This document shows, piece by piece, positions 35,068-45,246 of a DNA stretch of 64,000 bases. The notes under the pieces were generated by a model. It was not told where the DNA came from. It made no database searches and saw nothing but the letters and a program-made list of their open reading frames with translations. This DNA comes from Psychroflexus curvus. GTDB lineage: Bacteria; Bacteroidota; Bacteroidia; Flavobacteriales; Flavobacteriaceae. Where the stretch lies: NCBI RefSeq assembly GCF_020164585.1, contig NZ_JAIQZF010000003.1, forward strand, positions 248,001 to 312,000, given 5' to 3'. A program made the position numbers and the translations under genes. Every line of letters begins with the position of its first letter. Position 1 is the first letter of the stretch.

Positions 35068-37044
35068 ATGAATTTTGAGCACCATTCTTTAACTAAAGAG
35101 CAACACATAGATCTATTCAAAAGTATTTTGAAGCCTCGGCTTATCGAAGAGAAAATGCTGGTGCTTTTACGGCAAGGAAAAATATCAAAATGGTTTTCTG
35201 GTATTGGACAGGAAGCTATAGCGGTAGGGGTAGCAAAAGCTTTAAATTCAGATGAATACATCTTGCCGATGCATAGAAACTTAGGAGTGTTTACCGAAAG
35301 AAATATTCCTTTGTATCGCTTGTTCTCCCAGTGGCAAGGCAAACTGAATGGGTTTACTAAAGGTCGGGACCGAAGCTTTCATTTTGGGACTCAGGAGTAC
35401 AAAATTATCGGAATGATTTCACATTTGGGCCCACAATTGGGAGTTGCAGATGGTATTGGTTTAGCGCATAAGCTAAAAAATGAAAAAGCTGTAACTGCAG
35501 TTTTTACAGGAGAAGGAGGCACTAGTGAAGGTGATTTTCACGAAGCTTTAAATGTAGCTTCAGTATGGCAACTTCCCGTGTTGTTTTGTGTTGAAAACAA
35601 CGGCTACGGACTGTCAACTCCCACCGATGAACAGTTTAATTGTGAACATATTGCAGACAAAGCCTTAGGCTACGGAATGGAATCTCACATCATTCAAGGT
35701 AATGATATCGTTGAGGTTTATACTAAAGTCAGTGAGATTGCAGAAAGTGTAAGGCAGAATCCGAGACCCATACTTCTTGAATTCAAAACCTTTAGAAGAA
35801 GAGGGCACGAAGAAGCAAGCGGTACCAAATACGTGCCGGAGGAGTTGATGAAACACTGGGAAAAATTAGACCCTGTCGATAATTATGAGTTATTTATTCT
35901 GGAATCAAAATTTTTGACCAGAAAAGAAATCTCTTCACTAAAATCAGAACTAAAATCAGAAATCGATGAACATCTCAAGTTAGCTAACGAAGAAGCAGAA
36001 GTCGAAGCTGATGAAGCTACAGAGTTACAGGATATTTATAAACGTCATGAGTTTGATAACCAAATGCCTTCTTCTCAAAAGACCGAATTGCGTTTTATCG
36101 ATGCCATTTCTGATGGCTTGAAACAAAGCATGGAAAAATTTGAGGATTTGGTCATCATGGGGCAGGACGTTGCAGAATACGGAGGCGTTTTTAAAATTAC
36201 TGAAGGTTTTGTAAAAAAGTTTGGAAAAGACAGAGTTAGAAATACACCTATTTGTGAGTCGGCCATCATATCTGCAGCCATGGGACTTTCCATTAAAGGA
36301 ATAAAGTCGGTGGTAGAGATGCAGTTTGGAGATTTTGTGACATCTGGATTTAACCCCCTTGTAAACTATCTGGCTAAAGTACATTATAGATGGGGTCAAA
36401 ATGCCGATGTGGTGATACGCATGCCTTGTGGAGCCGGCGTAGGCGCAGGGCCCTTTCATAGCCAAACTAATGAGGCCTGGTTTACCAAAACCCCGGGTCT
36501 GAAAGTGGTGTACCCTTCAAGTCCTCAGGATGCAAAAGGCTTGCTGGCAGCCTCTATAGAAGATCCTAATCCGGTTTTGTTCTTTGAGCATAAGGCTTTA
36601 TACAGAAGTATCAGAGAAGAGGTTTCAGAGGACTACTTTACGCTGGAACTGGGAAAGGCTAATCTGATACAGGAGGGGAATGACATTTCGATTATTACTT
36701 ATGGAGCTGCTGTTCACTGGGCCAGGGAGGTTTTAGATGAACTCCCATCAATTTCAGCTGATCTTATTGATTTACGAACTTTATCTCCTTTGGATGAAGA
36801 AGCGATTTTTAAATCTGTCAAGAAAACAGGAAAAGTGATTATCCTTCAGGAAGATTCTATATTTGGTGGAATAGCTTCAGATATTTCAGCCCTTATTTCA
36901 GAACACTGTTTTGAATATTTGGATGCTCCGATTAAACGTGTGGCAAGTTTATCGACGCCTATCCCTTTCGCTAAAAACCTGGAAAACCAATATTTGGGGA
37001 AATTAAAATTTGAAGAGGCTTTGATAACATTAAATAAATACTAA
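35068..37044 (+). CDS. 2-oxoacid dehydrogenase E1, fused alpha and beta subunits (branched-chain type)
   Basis: 658 residues. Residues 1 to about 330 are the E1-alpha (TPP-binding) part with SKWFSGIGQEAIAVG, LPMHRNLGVF and the thiamine-diphosphate motif GEGGTSEGDFHEALN...ENN (GEG in place of GDG). Residues from about 340 are the transketolase-like E1-beta part with MGQDVAEYGGVF, CESAIISAAMGLSIKG, PCGAGVGAGPFHSQ and VYPSSPQDAKG. The enzyme decarboxylates branched-chain 2-oxoacids (or pyruvate) and passes the acyl group to an E2 lipoyl protein; branched-chain products would prime the iso-fatty acids typical of Bacteroidota. E2 and E3 are not in the window. Alpha-beta fusion is usual in this phylum. 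Confidence 0.9.
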   Translation: MNFEHHSLTKEQHIDLFKSILKPRLIEEKMLVLLRQGKISKWFSGIGQEAIAVGVAKALNSDEYILPMHRNLGVFTERNIPLYRLFSQWQGKLNGFTKGRDRSFHFGTQEYKIIGMISHLGPQLGVADGIGLAHKLKNEKAVTAVFTGEGGTSEGDFHEALNVASVWQLPVLFCVENNGYGLSTPTDEQFNCEHIADKALGYGMESHIIQGNDIVEVYTKVSEIAESVRQNPRPILLEFKTFRRRGHEEASGTKYVPEELMKHWEKLDPVDNYELFILESKFLTRKEISSLKSELKSEIDEHLKLANEEAEVEADEATELQDIYKRHEFDNQMPSSQKTELRFIDAISDGLKQSMEKFEDLVIMGQDVAEYGGVFKITEGFVKKFGKDRVRNTPICESAIISAAMGLSIKGIKSVVEMQFGDFVTSGFNPLVNYLAKVHYRWGQNADVVIRMPCGAGVGAGPFHSQTNEAWFTKTPGLKVVYPSSPQDAKGLLAASIEDPNPVLFFEHKALYRSIREEVSEDYFTLELGKANLIQEGNDISIITYGAAVHWAREVLDELPSISADLIDLRTLSPLDEEAIFKSVKKTGKVIILQEDSIFGGIASDISALISEHCFEYLDAPIKRVASLSTPIPFAKNLENQYLGKLKFEEALITLNKY

Positions 37045-37337: not shown

Positions 37338-37811
37338 ATGAAATATATTTTAACGATTGTAGTAGCATTTTTAATCACTTCGTGTGGTCCTGCTTATTTA
37401 GCCAATCAAGTAGAGAAAGACTTTAAAGGTGATTGGATTTTAGAATCCATTTCCTACCCAGATGCTTCCGGCTTATTTGATGTAGAACTGTTCAACCTGG
37501 CCAGTGCTTCCTGTTTTGAGAATTCAGTCTGGGAGTTTATTCCCAATAATAGCACCGGGAATTTTGTCTTAGATGGAAATAGCTGCTCTAAAACTCAGGA
37601 ACAGTTCACCTGGTTTGTAGACAAGACCACAGCCGAAAGTTTCAACCCTGAGATGCTGCTAAAGGTTACCACTGGACAAAAAGCCCGAAAAGTTGACCAG
37701 GGAACACGAGTAAAAATTAAATCTTTGTTAGCAAACCAAATGGTATGGGAACAAAACGCTATGTTTAAAGGTGAAGAAATTACAATACAAATGACATTTT
37801 CAAAATTATAA
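37338..37811 (+). CDS. lipocalin-like lipoprotein
   Basis: 157 residues. Lipoprotein signal with attachment cysteine at about residue 16 (AFLITSCGP). The mature part starts with a lipocalin-type FKGDWILESISYP and continues as short alternating strands with a conserved Cys pair (SASCFENSVWEF and DGNSCSKTQ). This is the pattern of the small lipocalin-like proteins common in flavobacteria, often next to OmpA. It would be held in a membrane facing the periplasm and could bind a hydrophobic ligand; ligand unknown. The gap to the OmpA gene is two bases, so the two are co-expressed. Confidence 0.7.
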   Translation: MKYILTIVVAFLITSCGPAYLANQVEKDFKGDWILESISYPDASGLFDVELFNLASASCFENSVWEFIPNNSTGNFVLDGNSCSKTQEQFTWFVDKTTAESFNPEMLLKVTTGQKARKVDQGTRVKIKSLLANQMVWEQNAMFKGEEITIQMTFSKL

Positions 37812-37813
37812 TT

Positions 37814-38509
37814 ATGAAACATTATCAAAATAAACTATTCGGAGTTTTAATAGCTATGGCTTTTTTATTTAGCTCATGCGAAGCGACGAAAAATACTAAC
37901 AAAACACAGCGAGGCGGAGCAATAGGAGCTGCAAGTGGTGCAGTTATTGGCGGAGTCATCGGCAACAATACAGGCGATGGAGACAACACTGTTCTTGGTG
38001 CTATTATTGGAGGTGTCGTTGGAGGTGCTGCTGGTGCTTATATCGGTAACCGAATGGATAAGCAGGCCAAAGAAATAGAACAGGAAATTCCTGGTGCAGA
38101 GGTAACCAGAGTTGGGGAAGGCATCAATGTAACGTTTGATGAAAATTCAGGTGTGTATTTTGCAACCAACAAAGCAGATATCGGTGGAAAATCTGAAATT
38201 TCATTATTGAAATTGATTAATATTTTTCAAAAATACCCTAAAACCAATATCATCGTTGAAGGGCACACCGATTCTACAGGTAGTGAAAGTTACAATATGC
38301 AATTATCGAAAGAGCGTGCTCAAGCCGTTACTGATTATTTAACCAGTAATGGAATTGATGCTTCAAGAATTAAAACCAGTTGGTTTGGTGAGGAGCAGCC
38401 TAAGTATGACAATTCAACTGAAGTTGGACGTTCCAAAAACAGAAGAGTTGAACTCGCAATAGTTGCCAGTGAAGAACTGAAGGAAGAAGCTCGACAGAAA
38501 GCTCAATAA
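37814..38509 (+). CDS. OmpA-family lipoprotein with glycine-zipper segment
   Basis: 231 residues. Lipoprotein signal (MAFLFSSCEA), then a Gly/Ala-rich glycine-zipper region (residues about 33-80, GGAIGAASGAVIGGVIG and GAIIGGVVGGAAGAYIG) that may insert in a membrane, and a C-terminal OmpA domain with the peptidoglycan-binding signature IIVEGHTDSTGSESYNMQLS then RAQAV and RSKNRRVEL. It anchors the outer membrane to the cell wall. The layout resembles the YiaD family. A strong terminator follows. Confidence 0.88.
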   Translation: MKHYQNKLFGVLIAMAFLFSSCEATKNTNKTQRGGAIGAASGAVIGGVIGNNTGDGDNTVLGAIIGGVVGGAAGAYIGNRMDKQAKEIEQEIPGAEVTRVGEGINVTFDENSGVYFATNKADIGGKSEISLLKLINIFQKYPKTNIIVEGHTDSTGSESYNMQLSKERAQAVTDYLTSNGIDASRIKTSWFGEEQPKYDNSTEVGRSKNRRVELAIVASEELKEEARQKAQ

Positions 38510-38577: not shown

Positions 38578-39693
38578 ATGAAAATCTATGATGTCATAAT
38601 TATTGGTGGAGGCCTTGCCGGATTAACATCTGCTATAGATTTGTCTTTGTATGGTTTTGAAGTTTTGTTGATTGAGAAGGATGAATATCCCAAACATAAA
38701 GTCTGTGGGGAATACGTTTCCAATGAAGTTTTACCTTACTTAAAAAGGCTTGGTGTCGACATAAGTCAGACCAATTCAGATCAAATTACTCAATTAGTTT
38801 TAAGCAGTCGTAGCGGTAATTCAGTTAAGGTAGAACTTCCTCTTGGCGGATTTGGAATGTCCAGATATGCTTTGGATGAGCTTTTATATAAAAAAGCAAA
38901 ATCCAATGGCGTTGAATTTAAATTTGAAACCGTTGTTGATGTCACGTTCGAAACTCAACAGTTTACTGTCAAAACCACTAAAAATGAATTTTACTCAGAA
39001 TTAGCTATCGGCAGTTTTGGAAAGCGCTCCACTTTAGATAAGAAATTGAACAGGAATTTTATCTACAACAAAACACCCTGGATTGGGATTAAAGCGCATT
39101 ATAAAAACGATGATTTTCCTGATGGAGAAGTACAGCTTCATAATTTTGAAGGCGGGTACTGCGGGCTATCCAAAACTGAAACCGGTGCGGTCAATTTTTG
39201 TTATTTAGCACATTACGATAGCTTCAAACAGGAAAGGTCTGTTGAAGATTTCAATAGAAATATCATAACTCAAAATCCTAAATTGAATTTGTTTCTTAGT
39301 CATGCTGAGTTGCTTTTTGAGAAACATTTAGCGATTTCACAGGTGTCTTTTCAGAATAAAGATGCTGTAGAAAATCACATGTTGATGGCCGGGGATTCTG
39401 CCGGGCTCATACATCCGCTGTGTGGAAACGGAATGGCCATGGCGATACATTCGGCTAAATTGCTTTCAGAAGAAATCAAAAATTACAGATATCATAAGGA
39501 TCGAAGTCAATTGGAAGCAAATTATTCGAAAATCTGGAAGCAGACTTTTCGCAAAAGACTTATTTTCGGTTCTTTGTTTCAAAATATACTTTTACAACCA
39601 AAACTCACAAATATTGGCATGTTAGCGGTTTCCAAATCCCCTTATTTACTCAAAAAAATGATTCAACAAACCCACGGTAAGCCTATTTTATGA
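38578..39693 (+). CDS. FAD-dependent oxidoreductase of type III PKS operon
   Basis: 371 residues of the geranylgeranyl-reductase/aromatic-hydroxylase (p-hydroxybenzoate hydroxylase fold) flavoprotein group. Visible are the FAD-binding GGGLAGLTSAIDLSLYG (residues about 9-25), the VCGEYVSNEVLPYL loop (about 43-56) and the second FAD motif GDSAGLIHPLCGNGMAMAIHSA (in part, near 275). It starts an operon with type III PKS genes: its last four bases overlap the methyltransferase start. The likely role is hydroxylation or dehydrogenation of the polyketide ring or acyl chain, by analogy with flavoproteins in comparable clusters; this is inference. Confidence 0.82.
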   Translation: MKIYDVIIIGGGLAGLTSAIDLSLYGFEVLLIEKDEYPKHKVCGEYVSNEVLPYLKRLGVDISQTNSDQITQLVLSSRSGNSVKVELPLGGFGMSRYALDELLYKKAKSNGVEFKFETVVDVTFETQQFTVKTTKNEFYSELAIGSFGKRSTLDKKLNRNFIYNKTPWIGIKAHYKNDDFPDGEVQLHNFEGGYCGLSKTETGAVNFCYLAHYDSFKQERSVEDFNRNIITQNPKLNLFLSHAELLFEKHLAISQVSFQNKDAVENHMLMAGDSAGLIHPLCGNGMAMAIHSAKLLSEEIKNYRYHKDRSQLEANYSKIWKQTFRKRLIFGSLFQNILLQPKLTNIGMLAVSKSPYLLKKMIQQTHGKPIL

Positions 39694-40400
39694 AACGTAT
39701 TTCTACCAAAACCCGTAGCAAAGAGGCAGAAATCATGGATGAGTTTGACTTCAAGGGAGATGAACTTAAACATGTGCTTAAAACGATCGATAAAATCAAT
39801 ACCAAACTTGGCGGACACCGTGTTACCATTAAAGGTATACAGAAATTACTGGAAAATCATTCCAAAAACCACCTGGTCATCGCCGATCTGGGTTGCGGCA
39901 GTGGAGACGCCTTAAGACAGGTCTCCCGATGGGCTAAAACACAGGGTATCAACGTCCAGCTCATAGGAATAGATGCCAATCCGTACACCATTGAGATTGC
40001 AAGAGAATGGTCCATGGACTACAAGAATATCTCCTACCGGGTCATCGATGTGTTTAGCGAAGATTTTGATGATTTTGAGGCCGATATTATTACCTGCTGT
40101 CTGACGCTTCATCATTTTGACAATGATTTTATAAAAAAATTAGTACCTGTTCTTTCAGATAAAGCTGGCTTTGGTCTTGTTATCAACGATTTACAAAGAA
40201 GTAAAATAGCTTACAGATTATTCGAGTTATATTGTTCAGTCTTTGTAAATTCAGACATTGCAAGAAAAGACGGACTAACCTCCATTTTGAGAGGTTTTAC
40301 ATCGGATGACTTAGAAGATTTCGCAACACAATTAAATTTAAAGCACCACATCACATGGTATTGGGCATTCCGTTACCAGTGGATTATTTATAGCTCATGA
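39690..40400 (+). CDS. SAM-dependent methyltransferase of type III PKS operon
   Basis: 236 residues, class I Rossmann fold. SAM motif VIADLGCGSGDALRQV lies near residues 62-77; GIDANPYTIEIARE (in part) near 92 binds the ribose; TCCLTLHHFDND near 132 is the typical post-motif stretch. Sandwiched with four-base ATGA overlaps between the flavoprotein and the type III PKS, it most likely methylates the polyketide product, at an oxygen or a ring carbon. No residues distinguish O- from C-methylation by eye. Codon usage from here into the PKS gene seems somewhat more GC-rich than the flanks. Confidence 0.85.
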   Translation: MKRISTKTRSKEAEIMDEFDFKGDELKHVLKTIDKINTKLGGHRVTIKGIQKLLENHSKNHLVIADLGCGSGDALRQVSRWAKTQGINVQLIGIDANPYTIEIAREWSMDYKNISYRVIDVFSEDFDDFEADIITCCLTLHHFDNDFIKKLVPVLSDKAGFGLVINDLQRSKIAYRLFELYCSVFVNSDIARKDGLTSILRGFTSDDLEDFATQLNLKHHITWYWAFRYQWIIYSS

Positions 40401-41449
40401 GTGTAAAAATAGATACAGTAGCCACAGAAACTCCTCAGTATTACAAAGAAACCAAAGATATAATCCCTTTTGTGGAGATGTGGCTGGCCAATGAAGACGA
40501 GAGGTTCAGGAGGAAGGTGATCAAAATTTATGAAGGTGCCCAAGTCGACAAACGCTATTCGATCATGGATCCGGAGGAGGTTTTTTCGGCTACTTCCTTT
40601 GAAGATAAAAACCGAATTTACACCCGGGAGGCTAAAATCCTGGGAAAAAAGGTTTTAAAAAAGGCCTTGCATCAGGCGGGATGGGTAGGACAAAGCCTGG
40701 ATTACATCATCACGGTAAGTTGTACGGGAATTATGATTCCATCTCTGGATGCGTTTCTTATCAACGATTTGGACCTGAGACAGGATATCGTCAGGCTCCC
40801 GGTGACCGAAATGGGTTGTGCGGCAGGAATATCTGGAATGATCTACGCGAAGCAGTTTCTTCAGGCCGATCCCGGTAAGCGTGCAGCAATAGTCTCTTTT
40901 GAAGCCCCCACGGCTACCTTTCAGCTCAACGATAAATCCATGGCAAACATGGTGAGTTCCGCCATTTTTGGGGATGGTGCTGCCTGTGTGCTGATGAGTT
41001 CTGAAGAAGAATGCAAAGGCCCTAAAATCTTGGGTGAATCCATGTATCATTTTTATGAAAACACCCACATGATGGGCTTCGATTTGACCAATTCCGGTCT
41101 GAAAATGGTACTCGACATCGATGTGCCTGAGAAAATAAGTGAGCATTTCCCGCAGATCATTCATCCTTTTTTGGAAAACCATCAGCTCAACATTGAAGAT
41201 ATAGATCATCTTATCTTTCATCCCGGAGGCAAGAAAATTATTAATACCGTGGAAGCTCTATTTGGAGCTATGGGTAAAAACATAGACGACACCAAGGAAG
41301 TGCTTCGTCTTTTTGGAAACATGAGTAGCGCAACCGTGCTGTATGTGCTCGAGCGCATGATGAATAAACCAATTGAGAAAGGAGAAAAAGGATTGATGCT
41401 GAGTTTCGGACCCGGATTTTCAGCTCAGCGTATTCTTTTAGAATGGTAA
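40397..41449 (+). CDS. type III polyketide synthase
   Basis: 350 residues of the chalcone/stilbene synthase superfamily. The catalytic triad is complete: Cys141 in TEMGCAAGISG, His275 in IFHPGGKKI and Asn308 in LFGNMSSATV. The enzyme loads an acyl-CoA or acyl-ACP starter, extends it with malonyl-CoA and cyclises the chain to a pyrone, resorcinol or phloroglucinol. The closest functional type cannot be set by eye; the adjacent ACP and fatty-acid-type enzymes suggest a long acyl starter delivered by ACP, as in alkylresorcinol and alkylpyrone synthases. It starts inside the methyltransferase stop (ATGA), and is followed by an 80-bp gap before the reductase. Confidence 0.93.
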   Translation: MSVKIDTVATETPQYYKETKDIIPFVEMWLANEDERFRRKVIKIYEGAQVDKRYSIMDPEEVFSATSFEDKNRIYTREAKILGKKVLKKALHQAGWVGQSLDYIITVSCTGIMIPSLDAFLINDLDLRQDIVRLPVTEMGCAAGISGMIYAKQFLQADPGKRAAIVSFEAPTATFQLNDKSMANMVSSAIFGDGAACVLMSSEEECKGPKILGESMYHFYENTHMMGFDLTNSGLKMVLDIDVPEKISEHFPQIIHPFLENHQLNIEDIDHLIFHPGGKKIINTVEALFGAMGKNIDDTKEVLRLFGNMSSATVLYVLERMMNKPIEKGEKGLMLSFGPGFSAQRILLEW

Positions 41450-41528
41450 GTTGCCGGCGTGATGCAATTAGGCGGGTTTCTTCTGATTTTAATAAAAGTA
41501 AGATTTAATTGTATAAGATATTTAGCTT

Positions 41529-42311
41529 ATGACCAACCCATCACTTAAACATTACGCCCTGGTTTTAGGAGGGAGTCAGGGTCTTGGATATGCTTCAGCT
41601 TTGAAGTTAGCTCAAAAAGGGTGGAATTTGCTCATCATCCACAGAGATAGAAGAAGCGATTTACCTGACATTGAAGCCAAATTTGAAGGGATTGAGCAAT
41701 ACGGAGTAAATCTCAAAACCTTTAATCTGGACGCCACAAATTCAGAAAAAAGAAAAGAATTTATAAGTCAGCTTCCAGAACTTCTTGGCGAATCCGGGAA
41801 AATTAAGCTGTTGCTTCACAGCATCGCCAAAGGAAACCTGAAAGCTATGACCGGCGATTCCCCACTGAATCAAACCGATTTACAAATTACAGCCAATGCG
41901 ATGGCGTATAGTTTTTACGACTGGTCGAAGGCTATTCTGGAAGCTGATGGCTTCGCCAAAAATACCAGGCTGTTAGCGTTCACAAGTGAGGGAAATCAAC
42001 GGGTCTGGAAGCATTATGCCGCTGTGTCGGTGGCCAAAACAAGTCTGGAAACTTTGATGAAATACATGGCTACAGAGTTTGCGGCGTATGATATCACGGC
42101 CAATTGTATTCAAGCCGGAATGGTGGAGACGCAGTCTTTCCATAGGATTCCCGGTCATGAACAATTGAAAGCAGCTGCTGAAAAGCGCAATCCCTTTCAG
42201 CGTCTGACGAAGCCAGAAGATATTGCCAATGTGGTTTATTTAATGAGCTTAGACGAAGCGAATTGGATCAATGGAAGCATCATCAAAGCTGACGGTGGCG
42301 AAAGTCTTTAA
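41529..42311 (+). CDS. enoyl-ACP reductase-like SDR
   Basis: 260 residues. The cofactor motif is LVLGGSQGLGYASALKLA (residues 11-28). The active site has Tyr163 and Lys170 in HYAAVSVAKTSLE, that is Y-x6-K, the spacing of FabI-type enoyl-ACP reductases rather than the Y-x3-K of ketoreductases. IAKGNLKAMTG near 99 and the IIKADGGESL end also fit FabI-like proteins. It would reduce the trans-2-enoyl-ACP formed by the dehydratase encoded next. It lacks a recognisable counterpart ketoreductase in the operon. The cofactor preference (NADH or NADPH) is not clear; HRDRR after strand two may favour NADPH. Confidence 0.72.
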   Translation: MTNPSLKHYALVLGGSQGLGYASALKLAQKGWNLLIIHRDRRSDLPDIEAKFEGIEQYGVNLKTFNLDATNSEKRKEFISQLPELLGESGKIKLLLHSIAKGNLKAMTGDSPLNQTDLQITANAMAYSFYDWSKAILEADGFAKNTRLLAFTSEGNQRVWKHYAAVSVAKTSLETLMKYMATEFAAYDITANCIQAGMVETQSFHRIPGHEQLKAAAEKRNPFQRLTKPEDIANVVYLMSLDEANWINGSIIKADGGESL

Positions 42312-42317
42312 AATATA

Positions 42318-42764
42318 ATGCTGATGAAATCCTCCGAAATCATTTCGAAATTACCCTATCAGGAGCCTTTTCTGTATGTGAAAACCATAGATGAGGTGTC
42401 CGATAAGTTCATAAAAGGAAGTTATACGTTTAAGGCGTCTTCCTGGTTTTACAAAGGGCATTTCAAAAATAACCCCATCACTCCAGGGGTTATTCTTACC
42501 GAATGTGCTGCTCAGATTGGCCTGGCCAGTTTTGGGCTGTATCTTTTATCTCAGCAGGAAAATATAAATTTGGAGCAGGTAAAACTGGCCATGACATCCA
42601 CAACTGTTGAGTTTCTTAAACCGGTTTTGCCAGACGAAAAAGTAATTGTGGAAGCTGAAAAAATGTACTTTAGATTTAATAAATTGAAATCTTCTGTCAA
42701 AATGTTTAATATGTCGGGAGATTTGGTGCTTCGTGGTGAACTTGCAGGCGTTATTTTACCCTAA
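42318..42764 (+). CDS. FabZ-like 3-hydroxyacyl-ACP dehydratase
   Basis: 148 residues, hotdog fold. The active-site helix is complete: GHFKNNPITPGVILTECAAQ with catalytic His48 and Glu62, matching FabZ (H...E). It dehydrates 3-hydroxyacyl-ACP to trans-2-enoyl-ACP. Two ATG codons are possible, at 42318 and two codons on at 42324. It lies six bases after the reductase gene and two before the ketosynthase gene, so it is clearly operonic. Confidence 0.85.
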   Translation: MLMKSSEIISKLPYQEPFLYVKTIDEVSDKFIKGSYTFKASSWFYKGHFKNNPITPGVILTECAAQIGLASFGLYLLSQQENINLEQVKLAMTSTTVEFLKPVLPDEKVIVEAEKMYFRFNKLKSSVKMFNMSGDLVLRGELAGVILP

Positions 42765-42766
42765 TT

Positions 42767-44041
42767 ATGGATAAAAAAAGAGTGGTTATAACAGGAATGG
42801 GCGTAGTCGCGCCAAATGCAACAGGACTTTCTCAGTTTGAGGAGGCTATCAAGTCGGGTAAAAGCGGGATTGAATTTCATAAAGAGTTAGAAGAATTAAA
42901 ATTTAGCTGTCAGATTGGAGGTGTGCCAAAGGTCTCTCAGGATCTCATGGATCATTACTTTACCGCTTTGGAGCAGCGAGGCCTTTTGGCCACGGGTTTG
43001 ATTTACGGCGGGATCGCCGGACAGGAAGCCTGGGAAGATGCTCAACTGGAAATCAGCGACCAACTCGATACCGATTCTGGAATTATCTTTGGAACCGGTG
43101 TTCTTGGTGTTGAAAAACTGAGAGAAGCCTTCAATAAAATAGACGCTAAGCAAGTTAGAAGACTGGGAAGCACCAGTGTTTTACAAACCATGGCCAGTGG
43201 AATTAGTGCCTTCCTGGGTGGTAAATTGGGTTGTGGAAATCAGGTCACCTCCAATTCTTCTGCCTGTTCCACAGGAACGGAGGCTTTATTGATGGGGTAT
43301 GAACGCATCCACTATGGAAAAGCCAAACGTATGCTGGTGGGGAGTTGTAGTGATTCCGGACCTTATGTTTGGGGTGGTTTTGATGCCTTACGGATTTTAC
43401 CACATCAGTACAATGATCGACCGGAATCAGCTTCTCAGCCTTTGTCTGCTGGTGCTGCAGGTTTTGTGCCGTCAAGTGGGGCTGGAGCTTTGGTTTTGGA
43501 AAGTCTGGAGTCTGCTTTGGTAAGGGACGCCAATATTTATGCAGAAGTTTTAGGAGGACACCTCAACTCTGGAGGTCAACGCGAACAGGGGAGCATGACG
43601 GCCCCCAACTCTACGGCGGTCATAAGCTGTATATCTGAAGCCTTAAAGCAGACTGGTGTTAATTCAGAAGAAATTGACCTTATCAACGGCCACCTCACGG
43701 CAACCGCTATGGATGCTACTGAAATCGAAAACTGGTCTAAGGCTTTGGGTTTAGAAAGAGAAGATTTCCCCTATATCAACTCGCTAAAAAGTCATGTTGG
43801 TCATGCTTTGGCAGCAGCAGGGAGTATTGAACTGGTGAGCTCTGTTTTGCAGATTTCTCGCGGATTTATTTTTCCAAACCTAAATTGTGAAACCATACAT
43901 CCGGAAATTTTGAAACACGTCAGGGAAGATAAAATACCAAGAGAAGTACTCAGAACAAAATTAAACTTTCTGGCCAAGGCAAGTTTTGGATTTGGGGATG
44001 TCAACGCCTGTGTCATATTAAAATCTTATAACGATGAATAA
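42767..44041 (+). CDS. beta-ketoacyl-ACP synthase (FabF-like)
   Basis: 424 residues, thiolase fold. The condensing triad is complete: Cys167 in TSNSSACSTGTEAL, His309 in INGHLTATAMDATE and His346 with Lys341 in SLKSHVGHALAAAGS. It performs decarboxylative Claisen condensation with malonyl-ACP. The active-site His loop reads GHLTAT instead of the usual AHGTST, which sets it apart from the housekeeping FabF and suggests a specialised chain builder, as in aryl-polyene or flexirubin clusters. No chain-length-factor partner is encoded beside it. The small membrane-protein gene starts inside its 3' end. Confidence 0.88.
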   Translation: MDKKRVVITGMGVVAPNATGLSQFEEAIKSGKSGIEFHKELEELKFSCQIGGVPKVSQDLMDHYFTALEQRGLLATGLIYGGIAGQEAWEDAQLEISDQLDTDSGIIFGTGVLGVEKLREAFNKIDAKQVRRLGSTSVLQTMASGISAFLGGKLGCGNQVTSNSSACSTGTEALLMGYERIHYGKAKRMLVGSCSDSGPYVWGGFDALRILPHQYNDRPESASQPLSAGAAGFVPSSGAGALVLESLESALVRDANIYAEVLGGHLNSGGQREQGSMTAPNSTAVISCISEALKQTGVNSEEIDLINGHLTATAMDATEIENWSKALGLEREDFPYINSLKSHVGHALAAAGSIELVSSVLQISRGFIFPNLNCETIHPEILKHVREDKIPREVLRTKLNFLAKASFGFGDVNACVILKSYNDE

Positions 44042-44279
44042 ACAACAACTTAAAAAACGCTACTGGTTTTTCGGTGGATTAGGAACTGGCCTTTTGGGAT
44101 TCGGACTTTCTGCTTTGGTAGAAAGCGGATTTTTAAAACATAGCAGTGCTCCGGAATGGCAATGGATTCTGGCTGGAACTTTATCTTTAATGCTTGTTAT
44201 GGCTGGGGTTAATTTCTTGTTTGAGAGCTTCAGGTGTAAGCAAAAGCTAGGTCTCGACGGAGCCTGTCCTGATGAATAG
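44034..44279 (+). CDS. small two-helix membrane protein in the PKS operon
   Basis: 81 residues, ATG overlapping the ketosynthase stop by eight bases, so it is translationally coupled. Two hydrophobic segments are seen, about residues 10-30 (WFFGGLGTGLLGFGLSALVE) and 44-64 (WILAGTLSLMLVMAGVNFLF), with a basic N-terminus and an acidic, Cys-containing tail (CKQKLGLDGACPDE). I recognise no family. Position suggests a role in membrane attachment of the biosynthetic enzymes or product export; that is inference. Confidence 0.65.
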   Translation: MNKQQLKKRYWFFGGLGTGLLGFGLSALVESGFLKHSSAPEWQWILAGTLSLMLVMAGVNFLFESFRCKQKLGLDGACPDE

Positions 44280-44473
44280 AAAGGCTCGATCTGACAAAGA
44301 CTGACATGGTTTTGGAATGTCACCCTGTTCTGCCGGCAGGCAGTCGAGAGGTTAACAGGTAAGAAGCGACAATTTTAAAAACTTGATAAGTCATTTTAGG
44401 AAGCTTCTCGATTAAGAGTCTTTATATATATTTAAAATTATTAAAACTAATTAGTAAATTGCTCAAAAAACCT

Positions 44474-44728
44474 ATGACTTCTGAAGCTATACAGGCACGT
44501 TTAAAGCAAATCGTAAAACCTTACGTCAATAATCAGCAAAACTTTGAAAATCTGACGTCTGAATCTAACTTTATCAATGACCTCGAAATCAATTCAGCTA
44601 ATTTGGTGGATATCGTGCTAGATGTTGAGGATGAATTCGATATTCGCATTGAAAATGACGATATGGAAAAAATGATGGATGTAGAAGCTACCGTCGGAGT
44701 GATTCAAAAGAAACTCACGACCAAGTGA
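44474..44728 (+). CDS. acyl carrier protein of the PKS operon
   Basis: 84 residues from the ATG at 44474; a TTG at 44459 would add five residues and is less likely. The phosphopantetheine site is NDLEINSANLVD with Ser41: the usual DSL is NSA here, while the surrounding helix-two pattern and acidic surface (DVEDEFDIRIENDDMEKM, in part) are those of ACPs. It would carry the growing acyl chain for the ketosynthase, dehydratase and reductase and possibly deliver it to the type III PKS. Its stop overlaps the transferase start by three bases (GTGA). Confidence 0.85.
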   Translation: MTSEAIQARLKQIVKPYVNNQQNFENLTSESNFINDLEINSANLVDIVLDVEDEFDIRIENDDMEKMMDVEATVGVIQKKLTTK

Positions 44729-45246
44729 TTGGGAACGACATCGTCGATTTGGCAAAAGCTAAACAAGAGTCTGGTATTTTTCGGCCTCGCTATCTTGAAA
44801 AAATCTGTTCAACTGAAGAAATTAATCTCATTTTATCTGCTGCCGAACCTATCAGGTGTTTCTGGAGAATCTGGACGATGAAAGAAAGCGCTTACAAAGC
44901 GGTTCAGAGACAGTTCAATTTAAAACCGGCATTTAATCCCTTTGCTTTTGCTTGTCTTTTTCAAGATTCTGAATTTGGAACAGTGGATTTTAGAGTTCAT
45001 CAGCTTTCTACAAAAACCATTAAAACCGATGATTATGTCTATTCTGAAATCATAGATAATGAAATAAAACAACAGTTTTTTGGTGCGAGTTCCGATTTTC
45101 TTTTGATGTTAAAAAACGAGCTGAATTTGCAATCCTTACCAGAATTTTCTAAAACAAAACAGGGTTTACCTATTTTAAATTTGGCGGACAAAACTTTATC
45201 TGTTTCAAAAACCCATCATGGAAGATTTCAAGCCTTTCAGTATTAA
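44725..45246 (+). CDS. 4'-phosphopantetheinyl transferase
   Basis: 173 residues, AcpS/Sfp superfamily. GTG start, overlapping the ACP stop, giving IGNDIVDLAKA with the metal-binding Asp at the N-terminus, and the second signature RIWTMKESAYKAVQ near residue 50 with the metal-binding Glu and catalytic Lys. It transfers phosphopantetheine from CoA to Ser41 of the adjacent ACP. A dedicated transferase next to its ACP indicates that the operon makes its own carrier protein active, so the ACP is probably not served well by the housekeeping AcpS. Confidence 0.85.
   Translation: MIGNDIVDLAKAKQESGIFRPRYLEKICSTEEINLILSAAEPIRCFWRIWTMKESAYKAVQRQFNLKPAFNPFAFACLFQDSEFGTVDFRVHQLSTKTIKTDDYVYSEIIDNEIKQQFFGASSDFLLMLKNELNLQSLPEFSKTKQGLPILNLADKTLSVSKTHHGRFQAFQY

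Follow-up and report, generated by a model that had tools for sequence, protein, structure and literature searches.

Nine genes at positions 38578-45246 of the window, the 64,000-base stretch that corresponds to bases 248001-312000 of contig C23 in the 3.0 Mb genome of Psychroflexus curvus, form a real, conserved and coherent biosynthetic unit, in which a chain-building module of fatty-acid-type enzymes adjoins a type III polyketide synthase (PKS) and two tailoring enzymes. All nine lie on the + strand, in the order flavoprotein, methyltransferase, PKS, short-chain dehydrogenase/reductase (SDR), dehydratase, ketosynthase (KS), small membrane protein, acyl carrier protein (ACP), and 4'-phosphopantetheinyl transferase (PPTase). 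On balance, we lean towards the view that the product of this operon is a lipophilic aromatic or pyrone lipid, formed by a type III PKS that the module feeds, with subsequent hydroxylation and methylation.

The best argument for a common function of the PKS and the chain-building genes is their co-occurrence over 296 genomes of the order. The PKS was matched in 44 of these genomes (E <= 1e-138, identity 60% or more), the first match beyond these being at 2.1e-33, and the operon KS in 43 (E <= 1e-90; weakest 2.9e-148). When the two lists were compared by eye, all 43 KS genomes were found among the 44 PKS genomes, and the KS was present in 0 of the 252 others at this threshold. In the 44th PKS genome (G091), which is 66% complete, the PKS lies at bases 618-1667 of a contig that starts within the SDR match. 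These counts contradict the rarity implied by the first-pass annotation of this DNA, as does a hand count in the family of the window, Flavobacteriaceae, where 33 of the 50 sampled genomes, including that of the window, carry the PKS. A sample of 395 genomes from the phylum contained three carriers outside the order, with PKSs 67-70% identical, and a scan of genome contigs yielded 19 PKS loci: seven from Psychroflexus, two each from Salinimicrobium, Salegentibacter, Taibaiella, and uncultured Flavobacteriaceae, and one each from Maribacter, Arenibacter, Croceitalea, and Saprospiraceae.

The gene content was tallied over 42 long-flank loci (the window, L003-L021, L052-L071, L090, and L091), all with different PKSs, and the 4-kb loci L022-L051 were left out. 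The profiles were built partly from the same loci, whose members are therefore bound to match; an earlier pass had relied solely on the proteins of the window. The flavoprotein, methyltransferase, PKS, and dehydratase were found in 42/42 loci, the KS in 41/42, with the exception of L018, which ends after the dehydratase, and the ACP in 40 of the 41 loci with a KS. The exception for the ACP is L020, whose contig ends about 560 bases past the membrane-protein gene, in what appears by eye to be an opposite-strand partial transposase. Within these 42 loci of the clade, the KS or ACP is thus missing solely where a contig end cuts the locus. The SDR (33/42 loci) and the PPTase (29/40 loci that have an ACP) are less constant. 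For the genes present, the order flavoprotein, methyltransferase, PKS, (SDR), dehydratase, KS, ACP, (PPTase) is the same in the 41 other loci, and it recurs across Flavobacteriaceae, Taibaiella, and other Bacteroidota. The spans scanned in the clade loci contain no additional same-strand SDR or KS. In contrast, no dehydratase, KS, or ACP was found in 18 chosen distant Bacteroidota PKS loci (L072-L089, 27-36% identical), of which three, L086, L089, and L087, contain a methyltransferase and a flavoprotein (the flavoprotein match of L087 being weak, at 44 bits). The conserved order and the KS-PKS co-occurrence bear out the proposal that a chain-building module and a ring-forming PKS, together with methylating and oxidising enzymes, are inherited as a unit.

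The placement of all nine genes on one strand was confirmed, but the overlaps of 1-8 bases reported for most of them were not. The junctions are, in order, -4, -4, +79, +6, +2, -8, +194, and -4 bases; only 4/8 overlap, and two sizeable gaps, of 79 and 194 bases, are present. No terminator-like site on the + strand is listed inside either gap, and promoter-like sites between 37000 and 46200 occur at chance level (24 versus a shuffle mean of 22.1).

The type III PKS (350 aa; 40397-41449, +; PF02797, 2.7e-20, and PF00195, 6.8e-18, above cut-off) belongs to the chalcone-synthase fold family. Its catalytic triad, Cys141/His275/Asn308, is present as first annotated and is invariant in 71/71 aligned rows (63 distinct sequences). 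In the alignments used for the active sites, low-scoring rows were dropped (16 distant PKSs, 12 KS fragments, two non-operon SDRs, seven flavoproteins, and two methyltransferases), and eight loci are present twice, leaving 63 distinct PKS, 42 SDR, 60 dehydratase, and 63 methyltransferase sequences. The window PKS is 97% identical to that of P. aurantiacus, which has the same gene order and flanks, and its nearest named relatives are Psychroflexus species. Among the matches listed, the closest solved chain is mycobacterial Pks11 (2.5e-52; 31.8% identical over 343 residues). Where Pks11 has ELCS, the operon PKSs have the motif E-[AS]-P-[TA]-x-T, with the proline in 71/71 rows.

A tree was built from 47 PKS rows: the window PKS, those of 22 other clade loci (out of 41) and of 16 distant loci (out of 18), and eight reference sequences. 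In it, all 23 operon PKSs fall into a single clade (100/100, with a stem of 1.7 changes per column), on the same side as Pks11, the BpsA-like sequences, and RppA. The PKSs of the three distant loci that have a methyltransferase and a flavoprotein (L086, L087, and L089) are 27-30% identical to the window PKS and branch elsewhere, grouping with L088, PKS18, and 4b0n (99/97). The deep placement of the operon clade is tentative, because several reference rows are partial, branches are long, and the root is a midpoint root. When L086 is compared with the window, the flavoprotein is 36%, the methyltransferase 31%, and the PKS 30% identical. The tailoring proteins of L086 are thus related to those of the operon while its PKS branches elsewhere, which suggests that the tailoring pair has been joined to different PKSs.

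The catalytic residues of the PKS, KS, dehydratase, SDR, and PPTase, as well as the ACP serine, are intact, and the gene families named in the first-pass annotation hold, except that the SDR, called FabI-like, scores best with FabL. For the SDR (260 aa; 41529-42311, +; PF13561, 2e-39), the FabL model of NCBIfam gave 141.2 bits, below its curated cut-off of 328. A Y-x6-K signature (Y163 and K170 in the window), which is the catalytic signature of the enoyl-ACP reductases FabI and FabL, was found in 45/45 rows (42 distinct), like that of the FabI-like protein of the host and unlike the Y-x3-K of host FabG. As judged from this signature, the operon SDR is most likely an enoyl reductase, and a ketoreductase was ruled out.

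For the FabZ/FabA-type hot-dog dehydratase (148 aa; 42318-42764, +; PF07977, 1.5e-13), H48 and E62 were found in 67/67 rows (60 distinct). For the FabF-type KS (424 aa; 42767-44041, +; PF00109, 2.8e-29, and also PF02801), which has the catalytic residues C167/H309/H346, C167, H309, and L310 were found in 53/53 rows, and K341 and H346 in 52/52 and 51/51, respectively, of the rows with a residue there. Two motifs set this KS apart from host FabF: HLT (leucine in 53/53) in place of HGT, and GFGD (in all 41 rows that have a residue at this position) in place of GFGG.

For the ACP (84 aa; 44474-44728, +), the PF00550 score of 20.5 bits is just under the cut-off of 20.8, and the protein is under the curated cut-off of every matched NCBIfam ACP model (best 49 versus 71 bits). 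The start is most likely the ATG at 44474, which gives 84 aa as in many relatives, and not the TTG at 44459. At the phosphopantetheine serine, where the usual ACP motif is D-S-L, the window ACP has N-S-A-N, and N-S-[AS]-[NH] was found in 36/36 rows. For the PPTase (173 aa; 44725-45246, +; PF01648, 3.2e-13), D5, W50, E54, and K58 were found in 27/27 rows; the genome has one other PF01648 match. The NSA motif of the ACP, the HLT/GFGD motifs of the KS, and the E-[AS]-P-[TA]-x-T motif of the PKS look like family-specific departures in these alignments.

The remaining gene of the module region encodes a small membrane protein (81 aa; 44034-44279, +) with two hydrophobic stretches by hydropathy and no Pfam or NCBIfam match. 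Homologues were found in 10 of the fetched loci searched, seven of them Psychroflexus; present in few loci, it was ruled out as a core part. The 194-base gap that follows (44280-44473), upstream of the ACP gene, holds a short G+C-rich palindrome (CTGCCGGCAGGCAG), and its length differs among Psychroflexus species; the truncated locus L020, from P. sediminis, ends within this gap.

For the flavin adenine dinucleotide (FAD) flavoprotein (371 aa; 38578-39693, +; PF01494, 2.4e-15), a member of the geranylgeranyl-reductase/phenol-hydroxylase superfamily, the best NCBIfam model was that of geranylgeranyl reductase (TIGR02032; 110.7 bits, below the cut-off of 158.8). A structure model calculated from 21 sequences had a predicted template-modelling score of 0.88, and a Foldseek search with this model returned pyrrole and phenol halogenases at the top, together with 3-hydroxybenzoate 6-hydroxylase, a geranylgeranyl-reductase-like protein, and UbiI. 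Flavin-dependent halogenases have the motif WxWxIP. This motif is absent from the alignment columns read, the matching stretch having been chosen by judgement, and the halogenase reading was ruled out on this basis, whereas GG-Y-x-G-x-S at 192-198 was found in 21/21 rows. The structural matches are consistent with a putative ring hydroxylase. For the class I S-adenosylmethionine (SAM) methyltransferase (236 aa; 39690-40400, +; PF13649, 1.2e-11), which is proposed to carry out O- or C-methylation of the ring, D66, H141, and H142 are invariant in 71/71 rows (63 distinct).

On a plasmid of Hymenobacter swuensis, a relative of the flavoprotein (L113:8947-10131) comes after an isonitrile synthase and a TauD-type dioxygenase; the flavoprotein family may therefore serve another pathway as well. 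No PKS is annotated in the 19 kb shown around the relatives on the Bernardetia and Hymenobacter plasmids.

Taken together, the enzymes suggest the following route. The KS, the FabZ-type dehydratase, and the FabL-type enoyl reductase, with host malonyl transferase and presumably host FabG, would build or extend a chain on the operon ACP, this atypical ACP being activated by the operon PPTase or, where that gene is missing, by another PPTase. The acyl chain would then pass from the ACP to Cys141 of the PKS, by analogy with the Ars system discussed below, and the PKS would extend it with malonyl-CoA and cyclise it to a resorcinol or a pyrone. The flavoprotein may hydroxylate the ring, and the methyltransferase may methylate it. 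The expected product is a methoxylated phenol, hydroquinone, or quinone lipid, probably destined for the envelope, where it may act in the membrane; more broadly, the product is probably a methylated, ring-hydroxylated phenolic, quinone, or pyrone lipid.

Most of the outline given in the first-pass annotation holds, but the chain builder does not appear to be autonomous, as had been proposed. The operon of the window contains no ketoreductase, malonyl-CoA:ACP transferase, or FabH-type starter enzyme, and the SDR and the PPTase are missing from 9/42 and 11/40 loci, respectively; the module must therefore borrow from primary metabolism, including host FabG. In the host genome, FabG lies at C1:377970 (349.9 bits, above the curated cut-off of 297.75) and FabF lies beside an ACP on C12 (429 versus 387 bits, partial sequence). 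A FabI-like SDR reaches at best 142 bits, below its cut-offs, and a second PPTase is present. The same genome also contains a further KS-like protein, unlike the operon KS, in a 398-residue open frame (L094, C12:55062-55592), which is far below the FabF cut-off (105 versus 494 bits, partial sequence).

Genes for lipid handling adjoin the operon. Upstream lie a lipocalin-like lipoprotein gene (37338-37811, +; PF13648, 7.8e-06) and, 68 bases from the operon, a gene for an OmpA-family glycine-zipper lipoprotein (37814-38509, +; PF00691, 1.1e-25), both possibly linked to it; genes of these two types precede the operon in several genera. YceI-family genes adjoin the operon in L057, L060, and L091, and a gene for a START-domain protein lies between the flavoprotein and methyltransferase genes in L064. 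In a planctomycete-related operon, a putative lipoprotein and a lipid/isoprenoid-binding protein lie beside the PKS, according to the available part of its description (PMC10896814). Such neighbours are compatible with a lipophilic product and prove nothing. Farther upstream, at 35068-37044, is a gene for a fused E1 component of 2-oxoacid dehydrogenase (PF00676 and transketolase domains), which also precedes the operon in several genera; a link to the acyl chain is possible, because such enzymes can supply branched acyl starters. Three loci of the clade carry other genes within the operon: a MepB-like gene occupies the SDR position of relatives in L062 (8448-8969), a small gene, by eye of the GIY-YIG nuclease type, lies between the dehydratase and KS genes in L057 (7782-8156), and an inserted gene for a YitT-family membrane protein separates the PKS gene from the SDR gene in L064 (10065-11027).

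Several observations weigh against the proposed route. The 44 PKS genomes are not independent events, because they share ancestry. The operon of the window has no ketoreductase of its own, the loci without the SDR indicate that the module need not saturate the chain, and the loci without the PPTase, whose ACPs retain the NSA-type motif, rule out a strict private ACP-PPTase pair. The flavoprotein, given its best NCBIfam model, below cut-off, could instead be a reductase of a double bond. Finally, when the upstream genes of 15 loci were read, YceI-family genes were seen in just the three named above, none being evident by eye in the other 12.

Of the products first suggested, an alkyl-resorcinol, a pyrone, or a quinone-like lipid, the resorcinol is no better supported than the pyrone, given that the nearest solved structure is Pks11. 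A rule based on Trp281 of ArsB and Gly284 of ArsC (PMC6274091) bears on this choice; an aromatic residue at the ArsB position would favour the resorcinol. It is conceivable, if rather doubtful, that the PKS makes a methylated alkyl-alpha-pyrone in place of a resorcinol or quinone, with the flavoprotein acting on the chain or the pyrone: Pks11, the nearest solved structure among the matches listed, is named an alpha-pyrone synthase, and the operon clade falls on the Pks11/BpsA-like side of the tree and not with PKS18 and the Bacteroidota trio PKSs. However, that tree has long branches, Pks11 is distant in identity, and a conserved flavoprotein of aromatic-hydroxylase fold beside a methyltransferase fits a phenol or quinone better.

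The composition of the module admits two other readings. The KS, dehydratase, and ACP are kept wherever the sequence reaches while the enoyl reductase is optional, as would be expected if these three proteins made a polyene or a short unsaturated starter for an aryl-polyene-like pigment whose ring comes from a type III PKS and the SDR were an optional later addition. We regard this as unlikely, since the operon of the window has no ketoreductase, ammonia-lyase, or aryl-activating ligase, the SDR is of the enoyl-reductase type in every row, and the host FabI-like enzyme could reduce the chain. Alternatively, two functions might share one transcript, namely a hid-like resorcinol trio fed by host acyl pools and a KS-dehydratase-enoyl reductase-ACP module for an unrelated membrane fatty acid. 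The trio does occur without the module, in the three distant Bacteroidota loci described above (one with the weak flavoprotein match) and, from the accessible text of PMC10896814, in planctomycetes. Nevertheless, the KS was never seen without the operon-type PKS in the 296 genomes, and the clade loci lose the KS or ACP solely at contig ends, which makes this separation of functions very unlikely. Overall, the module-fed PKS with subsequent hydroxylation and methylation remains the reading that we favour.

Fatty-acid-type enzymes and an ACP are also found in the flexirubin, dialkylresorcinol, and aryl-polyene clusters of Bacteroidota, whose products have a resorcinol moiety. To our knowledge, however, these clusters do not use a type III PKS, and the FlxB model scored only 75.1 bits against the SDR (cut-off 340). 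We likewise know of no fatty-acid module for mycobacterial Pks11. In an actinobacterial cluster on a Streptomyces plasmid (L115), which we take to be Srs-like, a PKS, a methyltransferase, and a flavoprotein lie in a row, as in the present operon. The defining feature of an Srs-type cluster is an ICMT-family methyltransferase, and that of L115 is of this family, whereas the operon methyltransferase matches class I SAM families alone; the flavoproteins are only 21% identical. A type III PKS and an ICMT-type methyltransferase also occur on a plasmid record labelled Stenotrophomonas rhizophila (L114), whose fosB and rsgA resemble Bacillaceae genes, a possible mislabelling.

Type III PKS clusters, a common type in Flavobacteriaceae, account for 10.74% of the clusters of this family (PMC10734526), and the surveys of this family, as far as their available text goes, count such clusters and name no product. 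In the open-access literature, available in part, neither a characterised product for the nine-gene set nor a description of the operon was found, in agreement with the initial statement that no characterised cluster has exactly this set, although each half is known from the systems compared below. The present analysis delimits a single coherent family whose biosynthetic logic can be tested, establishes the fatty-acid genes as part of it, and provides the NSA ACP and the HLT/GFGD KS as its recognition marks. Should the product prove to be a phenolic or quinone lipid of the envelope, it would represent a widespread class of lipids in common marine and soil bacteria, unrecognised as far as the searched literature goes. 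More tentatively, and as a conjecture that we would not yet call probable, Bacteroidota may own a private type II fatty-acid line, marked by the NSA ACP and the HLT/GFGD KS, that solely feeds one deep, uncharacterised type III PKS clade, its product being a methylated, oxidised lipoquinone-like membrane component in about two thirds of Flavobacteriaceae (the 33/50 sampled).

Both halves of the operon have precedents, described here from the accessible parts of the respective papers. The arsABCD operon of Azotobacter vinelandii (PMC4824345; also treated in PMC3098273) encodes a fatty-acid synthase, two type III PKSs, and a PPTase (ArsD), and chains bound to the ACP of ArsA pass directly to the PKSs ArsB and ArsC (PMC6274091). 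The two systems are alike in combining dedicated fatty-acid synthesis genes, a PPTase gene (missing in 11 of the 40 relatives with an ACP), and a type III PKS in one operon. They differ in that Ars relies on the large multidomain type I synthase ArsA and two PKSs, with no tailoring pair among the features described, whereas the present operon has a discrete KS, dehydratase, enoyl reductase, and ACP and one PKS, plus a flavoprotein and a methyltransferase.

The other half resembles hidABC, which encodes a methyltransferase, an oxidoreductase, and a PKS and has hierridins as products (PMC8086630), and the planctomycetal methyltransferase-oxidoreductase-PKS operons, which gave alkylresorcinols in a foreign host and one methylation on co-expression of the partner genes (PMC10896814). 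As in these trios, whose products are lipid phenols, a methyltransferase, a FAD oxidoreductase, and a type III PKS are contiguous in 42/42 clade loci, although the flavoprotein gene comes first (flavoprotein-methyltransferase-PKS). A word search of the accessible text on the planctomycetal trio (PMC10896814) found no mention of a ketosynthase or dehydratase, the chains coming from the host. The operon is thus a new combination of known parts and can be read, by analogy, as a type II version of the ArsABCD system to which a tailoring pair of the hid type has been added.

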